From contig CAJWEH010000006.1 of NCBI GenBank assembly GCA_913031135.1, positions 1 to 32,489 of the forward strand: DNA of 32,489 nt, read 5' to 3'. The position numbers and the translations under genes were made by a program. Each line of letters begins with the position of its first letter. The stretch's first letter is position 1. The DNA is from an uncultured Puniceicoccaceae bacterium (lineage in GTDB: Bacteria > Verrucomicrobiota > Verrucomicrobiia > Opitutales > Coraliomargaritaceae). Shown one piece after another: positions 3,423 through 14,462 of this stretch. The notes under the pieces are model-generated. The model was not told where the DNA came from. It was given only the letters and a program-made list of their open reading frames with translations, and made no database searches.

Positions 3423-4058
3423 CGGCAGGCACTCCCCCAAAGAATTCAACACACGTGCATTGGTTTCTTCCAGCCGAGAGCGAGCGCAATGGCCGGAGGC
3501 AATCAAAATACATTCGACGCCAATTGCTTTAGCAACTTCATAATCATGAAGCGTATCGCCTATAAGCAGTATGTCTTCAGCATCCCAAGAGGATTCAGCG
3601 AGCCACCCATTGGCCCGAGCAATTTTCCCTTCTGCATAGATGTTGTCGGTTCCTAACAAAGCGGCAAAATGGCGATTGATTCCAAAATGCTGAGTGCCAA
3701 CGGTTAAAGCATTTTCGTGAGCGGCCGATAAAATAGAGTGCGAGATTCCTTTTCCTTGCAATCCTTTCAGTACTCGCTCTGCATCGATATGCAATTGGCA
3801 TTCCTTAAGCCAGCGTTTTTCATATTCTGAAATGAACGATTTGCTCAGCTGGTCAAAGCTAGCGGCACTTGTTTCAAAGCCTAAAAATTCATAAAAGTGA
3901 ATAACTGGAAAGTTGAAATGCTCTTTATAGGTTTCATGAGTAATGGTGGGCTTATCGCTCTCTTTAAGTAGCCCATTTAAAACCTCAACACAGAGCCAAC
4001 TGTCATCTAATAAAGTCCCATTCCAATCCCAAAGGATATGTTTATATTGTTTAAACAT
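3414..4058 (-). CDS. HAD-superfamily hydrolase (phosphoglycolate phosphatase-like)
   Basis: This is a 214-residue soluble HAD phosphatase. Motif I is WDWNGTLLDD, with nucleophile Asp11. The usual second Asp (position +2) is Asn13, a known variant in some HAD subgroups that could affect leaving-group protonation. Motif II is near HSILSAA, and motif IV is GDTLHDYEVAKAIG. The helical region between motif I and motif II fits a small C1-type cap of the PGP/Gph group. The start codon shares one base with the stop of the upstream membrane-protein gene (TAATG), so the two are probably co-transcribed and translationally coupled. The physiological substrate is unknown. A sugar-phosphate or phosphoglycolate substrate is only a family-level guess. 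Confidence 0.85.
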   Translation of the reverse strand: MFKQYKHILWDWNGTLLDDSWLCVEVLNGLLKESDKPTITHETYKEHFNFPVIHFYEFLGFETSAASFDQLSKSFISEYEKRWLKECQLHIDAERVLKGLQGKGISHSILSAAHENALTVGTQHFGINRHFAALLGTDNIYAEGKIARANGWLAESSWDAEDILLIGDTLHDYEVAKAIGVECILIASGHCARSRLEETNARVLNSLGECLPLL

Positions 4059-4474
4059 TAATCTAATAGGTCGGGGGTTTTCCTAAATAATACCGAAGGA
4101 ATTTGCAGTAACGATAAGAAAATCAATGTGCCCTCAAATCCTGGAACACCCAAACGCTCTCCTCTAGAAGCAGATGCTATATAGGCATACATGACCACCA
4201 CCACCATAAGGAAGACAAAGCCAATGCATAAGAAACAGAGTATGCCAAAGCAGATTCTCCACAACGTATCGCTAAGAGCCTGATAGGGAAGTTGTATCCA
4301 AGCAGAAAAGATTAAAAAATACACAATTTTAAACCAATAAAAAAATATGCCCTCTTTTGGACTGCCCGCTCCTATTTCTATAAAAGCAACAAACATTAGC
4401 AAGGCGCTCAATAAGTAACTCCCCCATTTTGCGAGCTTTAAGCCCGTTTCAATTGACGATTTGTCGGAATACAT
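4058..4474 (-). CDS. Small multi-pass membrane protein of unknown function
   Basis: I do not recognise this 138-residue protein. It has hydrophobic segments at about residues 15-35, 45-62 and 82-115, the last long enough for a hairpin, so three or four membrane spans are likely. Charged residues are concentrated at the N-terminus and in a loop around residues 116-125. It is the first gene of a two-gene minus-strand unit with the HAD hydrolase and overlaps it by one base. It is divergent from recA, and the 115-base shared upstream region contains a long perfect dyad, so both directions could be under one regulator. No Shine-Dalgarno sequence is visible. Confidence 0.7.
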   Translation of the reverse strand: MYSDKSSIETGLKLAKWGSYLLSALLMFVAFIEIGAGSPKEGIFFYWFKIVYFLIFSAWIQLPYQALSDTLWRICFGILCFLCIGFVFLMVVVVMYAYIASASRGERLGVPGFEGTLIFLSLLQIPSVLFRKTPDLLD

Positions 4475-4495: not shown

Positions 4496-4523
4496 AATGA
4501 AAATATGTGAACATATTTTCATT
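4496..4523. promoter_or_regulatory. Perfect inverted repeat, candidate operator between recA and the divergent gene
   Basis: The left arm AATGAAAATATGT (4496-4508) and right arm ACATATTTTCATT (4511-4523) are exact reverse complements around a GA spacer: 13 paired positions with no mismatch. It sits 66 bases before the recA start and 21 bases before the divergent start. This is a typical operator position, and RecA is the classic SOS gene. It matches neither the E. coli box (CTGT-N8-ACAG) nor the TGTTC-N4-GAACA type that I recall for Verrucomicrobia LexA. That LexA or any particular repressor binds here is inference. Confidence 0.6.
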
Positions 4524-4589
4524 TAAACTTGATTTTTAAGAATTTAAATGACAGTTTTACCAAATAATTAATTTAACAAAAGACAAATT

Positions 4590-5651
4590 ATGGCGGCAAA
4601 AGCACAAATCGACAAAAAAGTATCTGACACAGCGAATAAAAAGAATTTAGACCTAGCGATTTCAGGAATTAATAAGCAATTTGGCCCAGGTGCCCTGATG
4701 CGTTTAGGCGAAGCTGCTAAAATGGAAGTCAGCAAAATTTCCACAGGCTCTATAGCGATTGACTTAGCCTTAGGCATCGGTGGTCTACCAAGAGGTCGGG
4801 TTTGTGAAATCTACGGTCCAGAAAGTTCGGGAAAGACAACGTTTTGTCTAAGTATCATCGCTCAAGCTCAAAAAGAAGGCGGAAATGCTGTTTTTATTGA
4901 TGTTGAGCATGCCTTAGACCCCCGATATGCTAAAGTTGTCGGGGTTGATTTAGAAAATTTAATGGTATCACAACCGGAAAGTGGAGAAGATGCCCTAAAT
5001 ATTACGGAGACATTGATTCGATCTGGAGCCATTGACATCATCGTAGTCGATTCCGTTGCAGCTTTGGTTTCAAAAAGTGAGTTAGATGGTCAAATGGGCG
5101 ACTCAACCGTGGGTTTACAAGCCCGCATGATGAGTCAAGCCATGAGGCGATTAACGGGTGCCATTAATAAAACACAATGTGTTGTCTTGTTTACGAATCA
5201 AATTCGCGAAAAAATTGGCGTAATGTTTGGCAGCCCTGAAACACAGCCAGGTGGACGAGCATTAAAGTTTTTCTCCTCGGTTCGTATGGACATTCGAAGA
5301 ATCGGTCAAATCAAGGAATCCTCCGGAAAAGTCATTGGGAACCGAACTCGACTCAAAGTAGTCAAAAATAAAGTCGCCCCACCCTTCACGGAGTGTGAAT
5401 TTGATATTATGTACAATGAAGGAATCTCTCACTCAGGATCGCTCGTCGATTTAGGCGTCGAACACAAAATTCTTGAGAAAAAAGGCTCTTGGATTTCATT
5501 CAAAGGTGAGATGGTTGGTCAAGGGCGTGAAGCCGCTAAACAAGCAATTATTGAAGACTCTGCTCTATCAAAAGAATTAACGGATTTAATTTTAGAAAAG
5601 GTGCAGCCCAAGGTAGGCGAATCGTTAGCGACATCCTCGGAAGAAGTTTAG
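4590..5651 (+). CDS. recA: Recombinase RecA
   Basis: RecA forms ATP-dependent filaments on single-stranded DNA, drives strand exchange, and activates LexA self-cleavage in the SOS response. The 353 residues are standard length. The Walker A motif GPESSGKT is at residues 76-83. Walker B is [10 protein letters not shown] near residue 150. The L2 region has the typical [22 protein letters not shown]. The C-terminal domain ends with the acidic ATSSEEV. The start is an ATG followed by [10 protein letters not shown], with an AT-rich leader and no ribosome-binding site. A perfect dyad lies upstream at 4496-4523. mnmE follows after 53 bases on the same strand. Confidence 0.99.
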
Positions 5652-9937: not shown

Positions 9938-9993
9938 GATAGTTTTTAGTTTAAAATTTTGAATTGTCTAACAAAATAAAAACTATCTTATAA
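9938..9993 (+). promoter_or_regulatory. Candidate ftsK promoter embedded in an inverted repeat
   Basis: An inverted repeat with exact 11-base arms, GATAGTTTTTA (9938-9948) and TAAAAACTATC (9977-9987), lies in the manA-ftsK divergent region. A possible promoter for ftsK is TTGTCT (9965-9970), 17 bases, then TTATAA (9988-9993). The right arm would then fill the spacer between -35 and -10, a repressor-like position. Transcription would start almost at the TTG start codon. The hexamers are imperfect and the region is AT-rich, so this is tentative. Confidence 0.35.
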
Positions 9994-9999
9994 ATTGTA

Positions 10000-12465
10000 T
10001 TGAAAAAAACTAAGCGAAAATCTGTTACCACTAAAGAGCGAACTATCCCGCCAAAAAAGTTTTTTGGCGTCCTTTTTTTGACTCTCGCTATTTTAGTCTT
10101 TTTTTCTATTTTGGATTATCACCAAGAGCAGTGGAATTCCACCGACCCAAGTGAACCGAATTGGGTGGGACAATTTGGCTCCCATGTTGGCTATTATGGG
10201 TTTCACAACTTTGGTGCAGCGATTTGGATCATTCCTTTTCTTTTAGGCTTCTTGGGCTATCGATTTTTTTCTGAACAGAAGCGTGGTTTGAGAGTGCGAC
10301 AAGGCTTATTGGGGCTGGTATCATTAATTAGTTTATCGGCCTTATTGTCTATTGTGAATGAGTTAGCTGGAATTGAATTTGTAGAGCGATCGTTAGTTAA
10401 TCAATTAACTGCTGGAATCGGTGGAATTTTCGGCGACAATTTGGTATTTAAGGCATTCAAGCCAGTATTGGGATCACTGGGCTGTGTGCTGATCTTCTCA
10501 GTATCGTTTGTGAGCAGTCTCTATATTGGATTAGGCGATAATTTGGGTGCGCTTTCGCATCTAGGGCTGCAAGCCATTTCTTCACTGCTTAATGTCATAA
10601 AATCCTTTTTGGAAAAGATTTTTAAGCTGATCTGGGGAACACTGCAAGTTTTGCTTGAAGGGCTACAATCATTTGGAGGTACGATTCTTAAGCTCTTCAA
10701 ACAGTTACAAGTACCAAGAGCTTCAGCTTCTGTAAATGAGGAGCAGGGAACAAGCGGGACAACACAAGATTTATTAGATCAGCCAATTGAAACGCAATCG
10801 GAGAAACCGTTAAAAATTGCAAAGCAAAGCATTCCGCCGAAAGAAGAACCGAAAAAGCCACCTTTAGATCCAAGCGCTTTCAAAATCATTAAAGGTGAGA
10901 CGACCGAAAAAGCATTAGCGTCTATTCCTGAGCGCAGGGGCGATTATGTTTTTCCATCGATAGACTTATTGAAGAATGCTCCAGTGGCAGACGGGGGACA
11001 AACAGAGGATCATGCTGCAACGATGGAAGCTTTAGTGGACACCTTAGAGCAGTTTGGCGTTAAAGTAATCCCTGGGGAAATCTTTACAGGTCCAGTGATC
11101 ACTCGTTATGAGGTGACGCCTGCAGCGGGTGTTCGAGTTGAGAAGATCGTGAGTTTAGATAAAAATATTGCCTTAGGCTTAAAGGCTTTGTCTGTGCGTA
11201 TATTAGCGCCTGTTCCAGGGAAGGGGACTGTGGGGATTGAGGTGCCGAATCGCATTTCTCAGGCCGTTTGTATGCGTGATATCATAGAGTCAAAATCATG
11301 GGCTGAGGCAAAGGCTGAGATTCCGATTGTGCTTGGAAAAGATGTCACTGGTAAGCCAATGGTAACGGATTTAACAAAAATGCCTCACGTTTTAATTGCG
11401 GGATCTACTGGTTCAGGGAAAACGGTTTGTATCAACGCAATCATTGCCTCTTTATTGTATCACTCAGGCCCGGAAGATCTTCGTTTCATCATGGTAGATC
11501 CTAAAGTGGTCGAAATGCAATTATACAATGCCTTGCCTCATATGTTGATTCCGGTTGTTACAGAGCCAAAGAAAGTACCAGGAGCTCTAAAATGGCTGAT
11601 TGCTGAGATGGATCGTAGGTATCAGATTTTTGCTCAAACTAAAGTCAGAAATATCGCGGGGTTTAATGCCAAAATATCTAAAGATAAGGAAGAGCAAGAA
11701 CGAGCGAAAGCCTTAGAGGCGGAAATGACCCCAGAGGAACGAGCCGCATCGAGTCAGATAGAAGTCCCTCGAGATGACGATGCCTTTGAAGTGCCTAAGA
11801 AAAAGTTGCCCTACATCGTTTGTATTATTGATGAGTTGGCAGATTTAATGATGGTGGCGCCGGCTGATATTGAAACGGGTATCGCTCGTATCGCCCAATT
11901 GGCAAGAGCCGCAGGGATTCACTTAATCTTGGCAACACAAAGACCTTCAGTGAATGTCATTACAGGTGTGATCAAGGCGAATTTGCCGAGTCGAATTTCT
12001 TTTAAGGTGGCTTCAAAGGTGGATAGTCGGACTATTTTAGACGGCGGTGGTGCTGAATCTTTAATCGGTAAGGGCGATATGCTTTTTATTCCTCCAGGGA
12101 CCTCGAATTTAGTTCGAGCACAAGGGGCTTTTGTGTCGGATGATGAGATCAATGGGATTGTGGACTTTCTTAAAAGAAAGAACGACCCACCAGTCTTTGC
12201 TGAGGCGGTACAAAAGCAAATTGATTCGAGCGATGAAGAGGGCGGCGGAATGCTTGAAGGTGGTGGCGATGATGAAATGCTCAATCAGGCTTTAGAGGTT
12301 TTGAAAGCCTCTAAAAGAGCGTCTACCTCAATGTTGCAACGGCGTTTGAGGATTGGTTATAATCGAGCGGCTCGTCTTATGGAAGAATTGGAAGATCGGG
12401 GGGTCGTCGGACCTGAAAATGGGTCGAGTCCACGAGAGATTTTGGTCGACTTAGATCTCATGTAG
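10000..12465 (+). CDS. ftsK: DNA translocase FtsK/SpoIIIE
   Basis: FtsK is a septal membrane-anchored hexameric pump that clears chromosome ends and activates XerCD at dif. The 821 residues have four predicted membrane spans (about 22-42, 73-92, 100-120 and 153-178), a short linker to about 290, then the RecA-like motor. Walker A GSTGSGKT is near residue 468, Walker B VCIIDELADLMM is near 606, and ATQRPSVNVITG follows. The C-terminal gamma winged helix (about 758-821) has STSMLQRRLRIGYNRAA. The start is a TTG: a stop codon lies three codons upstream and no ATG occurs before the first membrane span. A roughly 30-residue insert rich in Lys/Glu (about 560-595) sits between the Walker motifs. Its end overlaps the DUF429 gene by 8 bases. 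Confidence 0.97.
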   Translation: MKKTKRKSVTTKERTIPPKKFFGVLFLTLAILVFFSILDYHQEQWNSTDPSEPNWVGQFGSHVGYYGFHNFGAAIWIIPFLLGFLGYRFFSEQKRGLRVRQGLLGLVSLISLSALLSIVNELAGIEFVERSLVNQLTAGIGGIFGDNLVFKAFKPVLGSLGCVLIFSVSFVSSLYIGLGDNLGALSHLGLQAISSLLNVIKSFLEKIFKLIWGTLQVLLEGLQSFGGTILKLFKQLQVPRASASVNEEQGTSGTTQDLLDQPIETQSEKPLKIAKQSIPPKEEPKKPPLDPSAFKIIKGETTEKALASIPERRGDYVFPSIDLLKNAPVADGGQTEDHAATMEALVDTLEQFGVKVIPGEIFTGPVITRYEVTPAAGVRVEKIVSLDKNIALGLKALSVRILAPVPGKGTVGIEVPNRISQAVCMRDIIESKSWAEAKAEIPIVLGKDVTGKPMVTDLTKMPHVLIAGSTGSGKTVCINAIIASLLYHSGPEDLRFIMVDPKVVEMQLYNALPHMLIPVVTEPKKVPGALKWLIAEMDRRYQIFAQTKVRNIAGFNAKISKDKEEQERAKALEAEMTPEERAASSQIEVPRDDDAFEVPKKKLPYIVCIIDELADLMMVAPADIETGIARIAQLARAAGIHLILATQRPSVNVITGVIKANLPSRISFKVASKVDSRTILDGGGAESLIGKGDMLFIPPGTSNLVRAQGAFVSDDEINGIVDFLKRKNDPPVFAEAVQKQIDSSDEEGGGMLEGGGDDEMLNQALEVLKASKRASTSMLQRRLRIGYNRAARLMEELEDRGVVGPENGSSPREILVDLDLM

Positions 12466-13159
12466 TTGGGTGCTTGAGTTCTTCATAAAAGAATTTGTAG
12501 TCCTTTGTTTGGGCTACTAATGCGAGCGCTACAGAATCGAGCAGGTCATCTATTTTACAGTTCAATGTTTTCATACTGGCGAGCTCATTTGAATAATTGG
12601 GGAGATGCTGTTCAATGATCTGCATTCGTTTCTTTCTGCCTTCAACGGTCTTTTTTGATTCAGGGAGCACAGAGCCATTGTTTAGTTGCATAAATGCGAT
12701 TTCTGGGTGGTATTCTTTTAGGCGTGTATCCTTGATGGCTTGTAGTTCTTTAATTTTTGGGAAAAGGTTGTAGCATTGGATTGATATTTTTTTACCCATT
12801 GCAAGTTGTGATAGTTGGCAAGCTTCAGAGTAAGTCTTTGCCTTTAAGGCAGTTAAGGGAGGAGCGGGAAAGACGCGGGAGTGCCATTTCCCAAGCATTT
12901 TTTTCGCGATACGGTCAAAGGCTCTCGAAGTTGGTTGATCGTTTAAGCCTAGAATCATATCAATTAAAATCACCGCTTGCTTAGGCGCAGATTCTATAAT
13001 GGGTCTAAGTGATGGAATGGTATAGCTATGGGGCGTGCTACTTTTAGACAGATGAGTCACCACCCATCCGCCGTGACAGCCATCAATCCCAATCCAGTCC
13101 CTGGGGCTTTGGTGAGGTTGTTTGAGTCGGTGTTTTAGCAAAGGTTTGGTCACTTTCAA
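12458..13159 (-). CDS. DUF429 family protein, predicted RNase H-like nuclease
   Basis: DUF429 proteins are predicted to adopt the RNase H fold; none has a settled role that I know of. The motifs are complete: WIGIDGCHGGW (first Asp), VILIDMILGL, VFPAPPL, EYHPEIAF (a His-Pro-Glu block) and KIDDLLDSVALAL (late acidic pair). Up to 233 residues are possible, but the start is uncertain. The longest version uses TTG at 13159; GTG at 13153 or TTG at 13141 are alternatives, and the domain begins only around residue 22. Every option overlaps the 3' end of the Y-family polymerase gene in another frame, by 59 to 77 bases, which suggests translational coupling. A nuclease or nucleotide-handling role in the repair block is inference. 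Confidence 0.82.
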   Translation of the reverse strand: MKVTKPLLKHRLKQPHQSPRDWIGIDGCHGGWVVTHLSKSSTPHSYTIPSLRPIIESAPKQAVILIDMILGLNDQPTSRAFDRIAKKMLGKWHSRVFPAPPLTALKAKTYSEACQLSQLAMGKKISIQCYNLFPKIKELQAIKDTRLKEYHPEIAFMQLNNGSVLPESKKTVEGRKKRMQIIEQHLPNYSNELASMKTLNCKIDDLLDSVALALVAQTKDYKFFYEELKHPTT

Positions 13160-14384
13160 TAGTTAAATCGGGAATATGGTTGAATGCAATACGCATAGGA
13201 GCAGCTTCTGTTGTTTTTTGAGCCAGCATAGCGTTGCCATAGTAGATGGAGCGATTCCCATAGCGTTGCTTGATCTGATCCATAATGGATTGAAGTTGAG
13301 CTCTTCGACGGTCTTCGGCACTTTCAAATAGGGATGGAGTGTGGTTTTTTGCATGAATGAGACCCATTAGCGTGATGGATACTTTTGTTGGATTAGGAGC
13401 CATTTTTGGGCGACAATCCCAAAGTAAATTGAGCAGTTGAGACAGCTGTAGGGTGTCTTGCGTTGGGGAACAGCGAATGGCTTCATGCCAACGCCATTCG
13501 AATCCGAATTTAACTTGGAGCACTAAATGGCTTGTGAAGTATTGCTCGACTCGTAGGCGGTGGCAGGCCTTTTCAAGCATCCGATGGAGTGTGGAAAAAG
13601 CGCCTTCTGTGCTTCTTAATTTTGGCGGAAGCACGTGAGAATGACCAAAGGTACGCTTATGCGTCTCTTGTTCGGGCAGGCTAATCCCTCTTAAGGCATA
13701 CCAAAAGCGGTCACCTTCGATAGAACCCCATATTCGATGTAAGGTCTCTCGTTTTGCCTGACAGAGTTCCTTTACATTGGTTATGCCATGGCTTTTTAAG
13801 CGGATCTGCATACGAGCTCCAATGCCCGTTATGTCGCTTAAATCAAAAGCTTCAAGTATTTCTGGAAGTTGTTCATAATCAACAAGTACTAAACCGTTTG
13901 GCTTGTTCATCTTGCTCGCTAATTTTGCGATAAAACGGTTGGGTGCGATTCCAATAGAGGCGGTTATTTCTCTGCCAATCGTTTGTTTTAATGCGAGTTT
14001 TATGGTTTCCGCTTTTTGCCGTGCTTTCTTGGGTTTTTGCCATTTAGGAGGGAGCCGGCCATACATTTCATCAATCGACAATACCTCATCTACGAAAATT
14101 ACTTCGTGTATGGTTTCCACCATTCGATTATGTATAGCGACATATTTATCATGATTTGCTTGAATAAACTGAATATTTGGGCAAAGTGCGCGCGCTTGGC
14201 GAACTGGTACCCCTGTTTTTATTCCGAAATGCTTCGCTTCATAACTAGCGGCAATGCAACTGGTCGTTTCGGCGTTGAGTGTGGGGACAATAGCAATGGG
14301 TTTCCCTCTTAAAAGAGGGTTGGATTGTTGTTCAACGGATGCATAGAAGCTGTCAAAATCGATGAATAAATATCGCAATGCCAT
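13083..14384 (-). CDS. Y-family translesion DNA polymerase (DinB/UmuC/ImpB group)
   Basis: This is a lesion-bypass polymerase of 433 residues. Catalytic acids are D9 and D11 (IDFDSFYASVE) and D105-E106 (LSIDEMYG), with Tyr14 at the steric-gate position. The finger block VPVRQARALCPN, palm ASIGIAPNRFIAKLASKMNKPNG, the helix-hairpin-helix DLSDITGIGARMQIRLKSHG and a little-finger domain (about 245-360) follow. The C-terminal APMRIAFNHIPDL resembles the ImpB/ImuB-like group more than classic DinB, and I see no clear C-terminal beta-clamp motif, so I give no symbol. AGGA 7 bases before the ATG is one of the few plausible ribosome-binding sites here. mutS lies upstream after 79 bases that contain a 13-base-arm inverted repeat. 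The DUF429 gene overlaps its end. Confidence 0.93.
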   Translation of the reverse strand: MALRYLFIDFDSFYASVEQQSNPLLRGKPIAIVPTLNAETTSCIAASYEAKHFGIKTGVPVRQARALCPNIQFIQANHDKYVAIHNRMVETIHEVIFVDEVLSIDEMYGRLPPKWQKPKKARQKAETIKLALKQTIGREITASIGIAPNRFIAKLASKMNKPNGLVLVDYEQLPEILEAFDLSDITGIGARMQIRLKSHGITNVKELCQAKRETLHRIWGSIEGDRFWYALRGISLPEQETHKRTFGHSHVLPPKLRSTEGAFSTLHRMLEKACHRLRVEQYFTSHLVLQVKFGFEWRWHEAIRCSPTQDTLQLSQLLNLLWDCRPKMAPNPTKVSITLMGLIHAKNHTPSLFESAEDRRRAQLQSIMDQIKQRYGNRSIYYGNAMLAQKTTEAAPMRIAFNHIPDLTIESDQTFAKTPTQTTSPKPQGLDWD

Positions 14385-14424: not shown

Positions 14425-14462
14425 TCAAGAAAATAGTGAACGTAAGTATACTATTTTCTTGA
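14425..14462. promoter_or_regulatory. Long inverted repeat between mutS and the Y-family polymerase gene
   Basis: The arms TCAAGAAAATAGT (14425-14437) and ACTATTTTCTTGA (14450-14462) are perfect complements around a 12-base centre, GAACGTAAGTAT. It lies 40 bases before the polymerase start and directly after the mutS stop. It could be an operator or an AT-rich hairpin ending mutS transcripts, but no T-run follows on the minus strand, which argues against an intrinsic terminator. It shares GAAAATA, GTGAAC and TATTTTC, in the same order, with the dyad before recA. Confidence 0.55.

Follow-up and report, generated by a model that had tools for sequence, protein, structure and literature searches.

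A candidate lineage-specific LexA operator with Gram-positive-type geometry upstream of recA in an Opitutales genome

Repression by LexA, relieved when RecA filaments trigger self-cleavage of the repressor, is established LexA biology. For Verrucomicrobia, Erill et al. in 2016 (Front Mol Biosci 3:33) reportedly described TGTTC-N4-GAACA as the LexA motif; a literature search on LexA motifs of Opitutales returned nothing relevant, this 2016 study of Verrucomicrobia LexA lying outside its reach. In Gram-positive bacteria the flanks of the LexA box are C and G. The box itself, known from Bacillus subtilis and Mycobacterium tuberculosis, is GAAC-N4-GTTC (PMC3323433, PMC4234289), and the LexA of Alphaproteobacteria uses the direct repeat GTTC-N7-GTTC (PMC8565304, PMC3323433). 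The element described here resembles the Gram-positive box in its inward GAAC half-sites, its 4-bp spacer and its presence before lexA, recA and error-prone polymerase genes, but its flanks are T and A (TAGTGAAC...GTTCAYTA), one of its half-sites is degenerate in this family, and its host belongs to the Verrucomicrobiota. With the Verrucomicrobia motif it has the GAAC/GTTC half-site word and the 4-bp spacer in common, and lexA promoters of the family contain the one-mismatch form TGTTC-N4-AAACA; however, the half-sites face inward here and outward there. The alphaproteobacterial repeat is built from the same half-site word, whereas the present element is inverted and spaced by N4. The original prediction had called the site unlike known LexA boxes, which is correct with respect to TGTTC-N4-GAACA but not with respect to the Gram-positive box, because the core has the GAAC-N4-GTTC geometry.

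The window, that is, the whole stretch of 32,489 nucleotides that was analysed, belongs to a 1.28 Mb draft genome that is 97.6% complete. The best named relatives of its RecA are found in MAGs of Opitutia, Opitutales and Puniceicoccaceae (91% and 84–87% identity), which assigns the genome to the class Opitutia of the Verrucomicrobiota. One LexA is encoded (TIGR00498); it looks intact, with HTH and S24 domains and the AAG, GDSM and TLKRL motifs, and the recognition helix in this lineage is STNAVMGHLRALE. Between recA (ATG at 4590, plus strand) and the divergent gene of a 138-aa hydrophobic membrane protein (ATG at 4474, minus strand), for which no known family was matched, the DNA at 4496–4523 reads AATGAAAATATGT-GA-ACATATTTTCATT. 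The arm at 4496–4508 pairs without mismatch to that at 4511–4523, so that the two 13-nt arms are 100% complementary around a 2-nt centre (4509/4510), and the 26 paired bases announced for this intergenic region are there as described (Table 1). The reported absence of TGTTC-N4-GAACA from the site is likewise borne out, since the sole match in the window with one mismatch, at 10628–10641, lies inside ftsK. Perfect inverted repeats with 13-nt arms and a loop of up to 20 nt averaged 0.05 per shuffle when the window was shuffled forty times with its dinucleotides preserved, and no shuffle had one with a loop of at most 2 nt; the real window has exactly two (loop up to 20), at 4496–4523 and 14425–14462. 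An imperfect inverted repeat with 15-nt arms, 93% complementary and 20 nt apart, is located at 9938–9987 between ftsK and the divergent gene for phosphomannose isomerase.

Table 1. Coordinates of the genes and of the observed and predicted elements in the window.
Feature	Position	Strand	Remarks
Divergent gene, 138-aa hydrophobic protein	4058..4474	-	a conserved neighbour of recA in most family members
Perfect dyad of the original prediction	4496..4523	.	two 13-nt arms around 2 nt; left arm private to this genome
Invariant 34-nt block	4504..4537	+	same in all five genus members holding recA
Core LexA operator of recA (predicted), TGAAC-ATAT-TTTCA	4508..4521	+	match of model R2; kept at recA across the family
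Probable recA -35 (TTGATT here, CTTGCC elsewhere in the family)	4529..4534	+	from position and conservation; promoter function inferred
recA	4590..5651	+	TIGR02012, 503 bits; PF00154
Y-family (translesion) DNA polymerase gene, DinB/UmuC superfamily	13083..14384	-	PF00817, PF11799; NCBIfam Pol IV models below cut-offs
Second perfect dyad	14425..14462	.	13-nt arms, 12 nt between; concentric with the enclosed operator 14434–14453; just downstream of mutS
Second SOS operator (predicted), TAGTGAACGTAAGTATACTA, before the Y-family polymerase gene	14434..14453	+	R2 12.3 bits, E 0.007 in the window; orthologous sites in the family

Conservation in relatives divides this dyad in two. The stretch TATGTGAACATATTTTCATTTAAACTTGATTTTT (4504–4537) is unchanged across four congeners, in which the next longest invariant run within 143 aligned columns measures 4, and the corresponding block before recA reads TAGTGAACAAATTATCATTTANNCTTGCC elsewhere in the family. 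The left arm, AATGAAAA, was found in none of the four congeners holding recA. The core is thus kept across genus and family and the full dyad is not, and a single functional unit made up of the 26 paired bases, as the original prediction implied, finds no support here; the left-arm extension is private to this genome and probably dispensable for operator function. Of 80 named Opitutia RecA loci, 14 have a perfect palindrome, TAGTGAAC-N4-GTTCATTT, at the equivalent place before CTTGC. Because the genus and family block and this intact palindrome align there, we place the core of the window at TGAACATATTTTCA (4508–4521), centred at 4514/4515 and one mismatch away from TGAAC-N4-GTTCA, with TTTC instead of GTTC in its right half. 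Such asymmetry is general in this lineage, where the recA site has TGAAC on one side and TTTCA or TATCA on the other. Model R2 matches 4505–4524 with 16.8 bits (E 0.00023 in the window search), its top match in this genome, and among 20,000 shuffles of the intergenic region 28 matched TGAAC-N4-GTTCA with at most one mismatch.

The centre of the dyad lies 5 bp off that of the operator, and the full 28-bp dyad, centred at 4509/4510, might be read as a species-specific site for another dimeric repressor or as a second, overlapping LexA dimer. Perfect 13-bp arms are rare, and the 8 pairs beyond the conserved core are hard to ascribe to chance alone at a place specified in advance, since their probability is about 1.6e-4 given the local composition. 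The left arm is missing in four of four congeners, however, the LexA model gives no second site on the left, and the dyad core has no further copy in the genome, so this reading is very improbable. When the dyad core AATATGTNNACATATT was tried as a genome-wide motif with up to two mismatches, it returned the recA site and three places with two mismatches, fewer than the reversed control. The simplest account of the left arm would be a quasi-palindrome correction that copied the right arm, and its perfect symmetry may have some extra function specific to the species. An RNA hairpin such as a terminator or attenuator is extremely unlikely: although a long stem could form in the transcript of either strand, the dyad is A+T-rich with a 2-nt loop, its pairing is not conserved, and its position is only 22–49 nt before the divergent start codon and on the upstream side of the probable recA -35. 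We regard the conserved part of the dyad as very probably the LexA operator of recA, which would be derepressed by LexA cleavage. A LexA operator accounts for that part, and the site for another repressor that had been offered as an alternative is not needed; of the lineage-specific SOS operator proposed at the same time, the LexA-type element stands and is also present before lexA, but the 28-bp dyad as such, with its displaced centre, is not supported as the operator.

The promoter of the genome's own lexA carries AAGTGTTCACATAC between TTGACA and the start codon. The exact 13-mer AWRTGTTCACATA occurs only before recA and lexA in the entire 1.28 Mb; the pattern was derived from these two sites, and the informative point is its absence elsewhere. 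Every one of the 39 family lexA promoters that were extracted has TGAAC at the matching place on the opposite strand, and in 38 of them the site reads GTGAAC, then N4 and, in most cases, GTNCATT. In L094, the most divergent genus, the lexA promoter contains a perfect TGAACGTGCGTTCA. The lexA site lies downstream of the -35-like TTGACA, whereas at recA the -35-like TTGATT follows a few bases after the end of the site, and a position upstream of the likely -35 is the less usual placement of a repressor site. The lexA promoters of the family (for example, L029 and L034) contain an array of GAAC-like half-sites with a period of 8 bp, GGAC-N4-GTTC-N4-AAAC-N4-GAAC, which extends from the -35 to the start codon and includes the one-mismatch TGTTC-N4-AAACA mentioned above; its AAACA part coincides with the expected position of the -10 and is not kept in the genus of this genome. 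A canonical TGTTC-N4-GAACA was looked for before the genome's own lexA with one mismatch allowed, and none was found. As a genome-wide candidate with one mismatch this motif has 38 matches (control: 26), neither recA nor lexA being among the places matched, and with at most one mismatch it is also absent before recA in 80 Opitutia loci. Three further loci (L317, L318, and L319) encode a second kind of LexA with the recognition helix ASQTA, and there the palindrome AGTGTTCATGAACACT, or a close form of it, overlaps the lexA start codon.

Similar sites precede genes of translesion synthesis. A sequence-only model made from the recA and lexA sites (R1) was run over 44 family genomes, and beyond recA and lexA it matched upstream of the Y-family polymerase gene (G026 and G023) and upstream of an ERCC4/Xpf-like nuclease gene (G023), both absent from its training set. 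The latter site (L301, G023:C129) is a perfect TGAACATTTGTTCA, and the nuclease may be an additional SOS gene. GTGAAC-type sites are present in nearly all orthologous polymerase upstream regions from 20 family genomes; in the window, this gene lies about 9 kb downstream of recA. The three ImuB/DnaE2-type cassettes examined all have TAGTGAAC...CAC before their first gene, which had no Pfam or NCBIfam match and is imuA-like by position only. R2 matches 18 of the 20 Y-family polymerase loci and all three cassettes, a recovery that is partly circular because this model had been built with some of the polymerase sites and with the sites of all three cassettes; as a negative control, none of the 23 Pol IV (dinB) loci in the family matches it. 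The upstream regions of recA, lexA and imuA-like genes in relatives, which had been suggested for comparison together with those of dinB, thus share the element except for dinB. The same distribution bears on the possibility that the 34-nt block is a mere core promoter or activator element of recA in which LexA has no part. The block does contain the conserved CTTGAT/CTTGCC, probably the -35, but TGAAC-N4-NTNCA recurs at lexA, the Y-family polymerase and ImuB/DnaE2 in either orientation and at varied distances from the start, is not found at dinB, and in lexA sits downstream of TTGACA rather than upstream; we consider a pure promoter element very unlikely.

When this genome was searched with R2 (E≤10), three sites emerged among the candidates scored, those of recA, lexA and the Y-family polymerase gene, the last two with modest scores of 12–13 bits. 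More sites may exist, because genome searches score a first-look subset of candidates only. Low-scoring extra matches of the model within the genus (at tgt, an RNA methyltransferase gene and others) were taken as chance, as they lie inside genes or away from gene starts. The second perfect dyad of the window, which encloses the predicted polymerase operator, might also serve as the terminator of mutS. Elsewhere in the family, LexA-type sites occur near the start of related genes in L297 and L298 (G010:C22 and G025:C9); the L298 protein matched integron integrase models below the cut-off, as would fit integrons under SOS control. In L299 (G027:C29), TAGTGAACAAATTATCATAT, which nearly copies the recA operator, lies about 100 bp ahead of the gene for a single-strand-binding protein. 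The presence of LexA compared with that of a TGAAC-N4-GTTCA site at recA in 30 hand-picked genomes gave 7/15 versus 3/15; this difference is weak, owing in part to the incompleteness of the MAGs, and carries no weight in the argument.

Several features expected of a LexA operator are found here in combination: one element is common to lexA and recA, a LexA with HTH and S24 domains is encoded, and the element recurs at translesion polymerases and ImuB/DnaE2. Inward GAAC/GTTC half-sites around a 4-bp spacer are intact in the lexA promoter of L094, at the G023 nuclease site and at the 14 Opitutia recA loci. On these comparisons, a lineage-specific LexA operator with Gram-positive-type geometry is well supported as a prediction. 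Among Opitutales, the recA operator takes the inverted form TGAAC-N4-GTTCA in many members, while that of this family is asymmetric, with only one of its half-sites good. Three neighbouring Opitutales (L136, L138, and L146) have a direct repeat before recA, TGTTC-N4-GTTCA, with a nearly unchanged LexA recognition helix; its N4 spacing sets it apart from the GTTC-N7-GTTC of Alphaproteobacteria. Throughout the order this helix is nearly constant (STNAV[MV]GH[LI]RALE). It is conceivable, if somewhat doubtful, that LexA in Opitutales tolerates several orientations of its half-sites, and that these loci would form a natural series of operator rearrangement. Such tolerance is possible because the 8-bp array of half-sites at lexA could yield either arrangement.

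From sequence comparison, we infer that LexA would bind these sites and repress the adjacent genes, which DNA damage would induce. At recA, a LexA dimer would bind the core as a degenerate copy of the TAGTGAAC-N4-GTTCA(Y)T that is intact in other Opitutia, and because only a few bases lie between the site and TTGATT, the bound repressor would hinder RNA polymerase and keep recA repressed. Upon DNA damage, RecA filaments would trigger the self-cleavage of LexA; the genes for RecA, LexA and the Y-family polymerase would then be induced together. For this family of Opitutia, in which the phylum-level motif fails, the element provides a candidate SOS operator from which SOS regulons would become predictable. 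It would also place a Gram-positive-type LexA box in the Verrucomicrobiota, which bears on the evolution of LexA specificity. In the streamlined 1.28 Mb genome studied here, the predicted SOS regulon is very small and would comprise lexA, recA and one Y-family polymerase.
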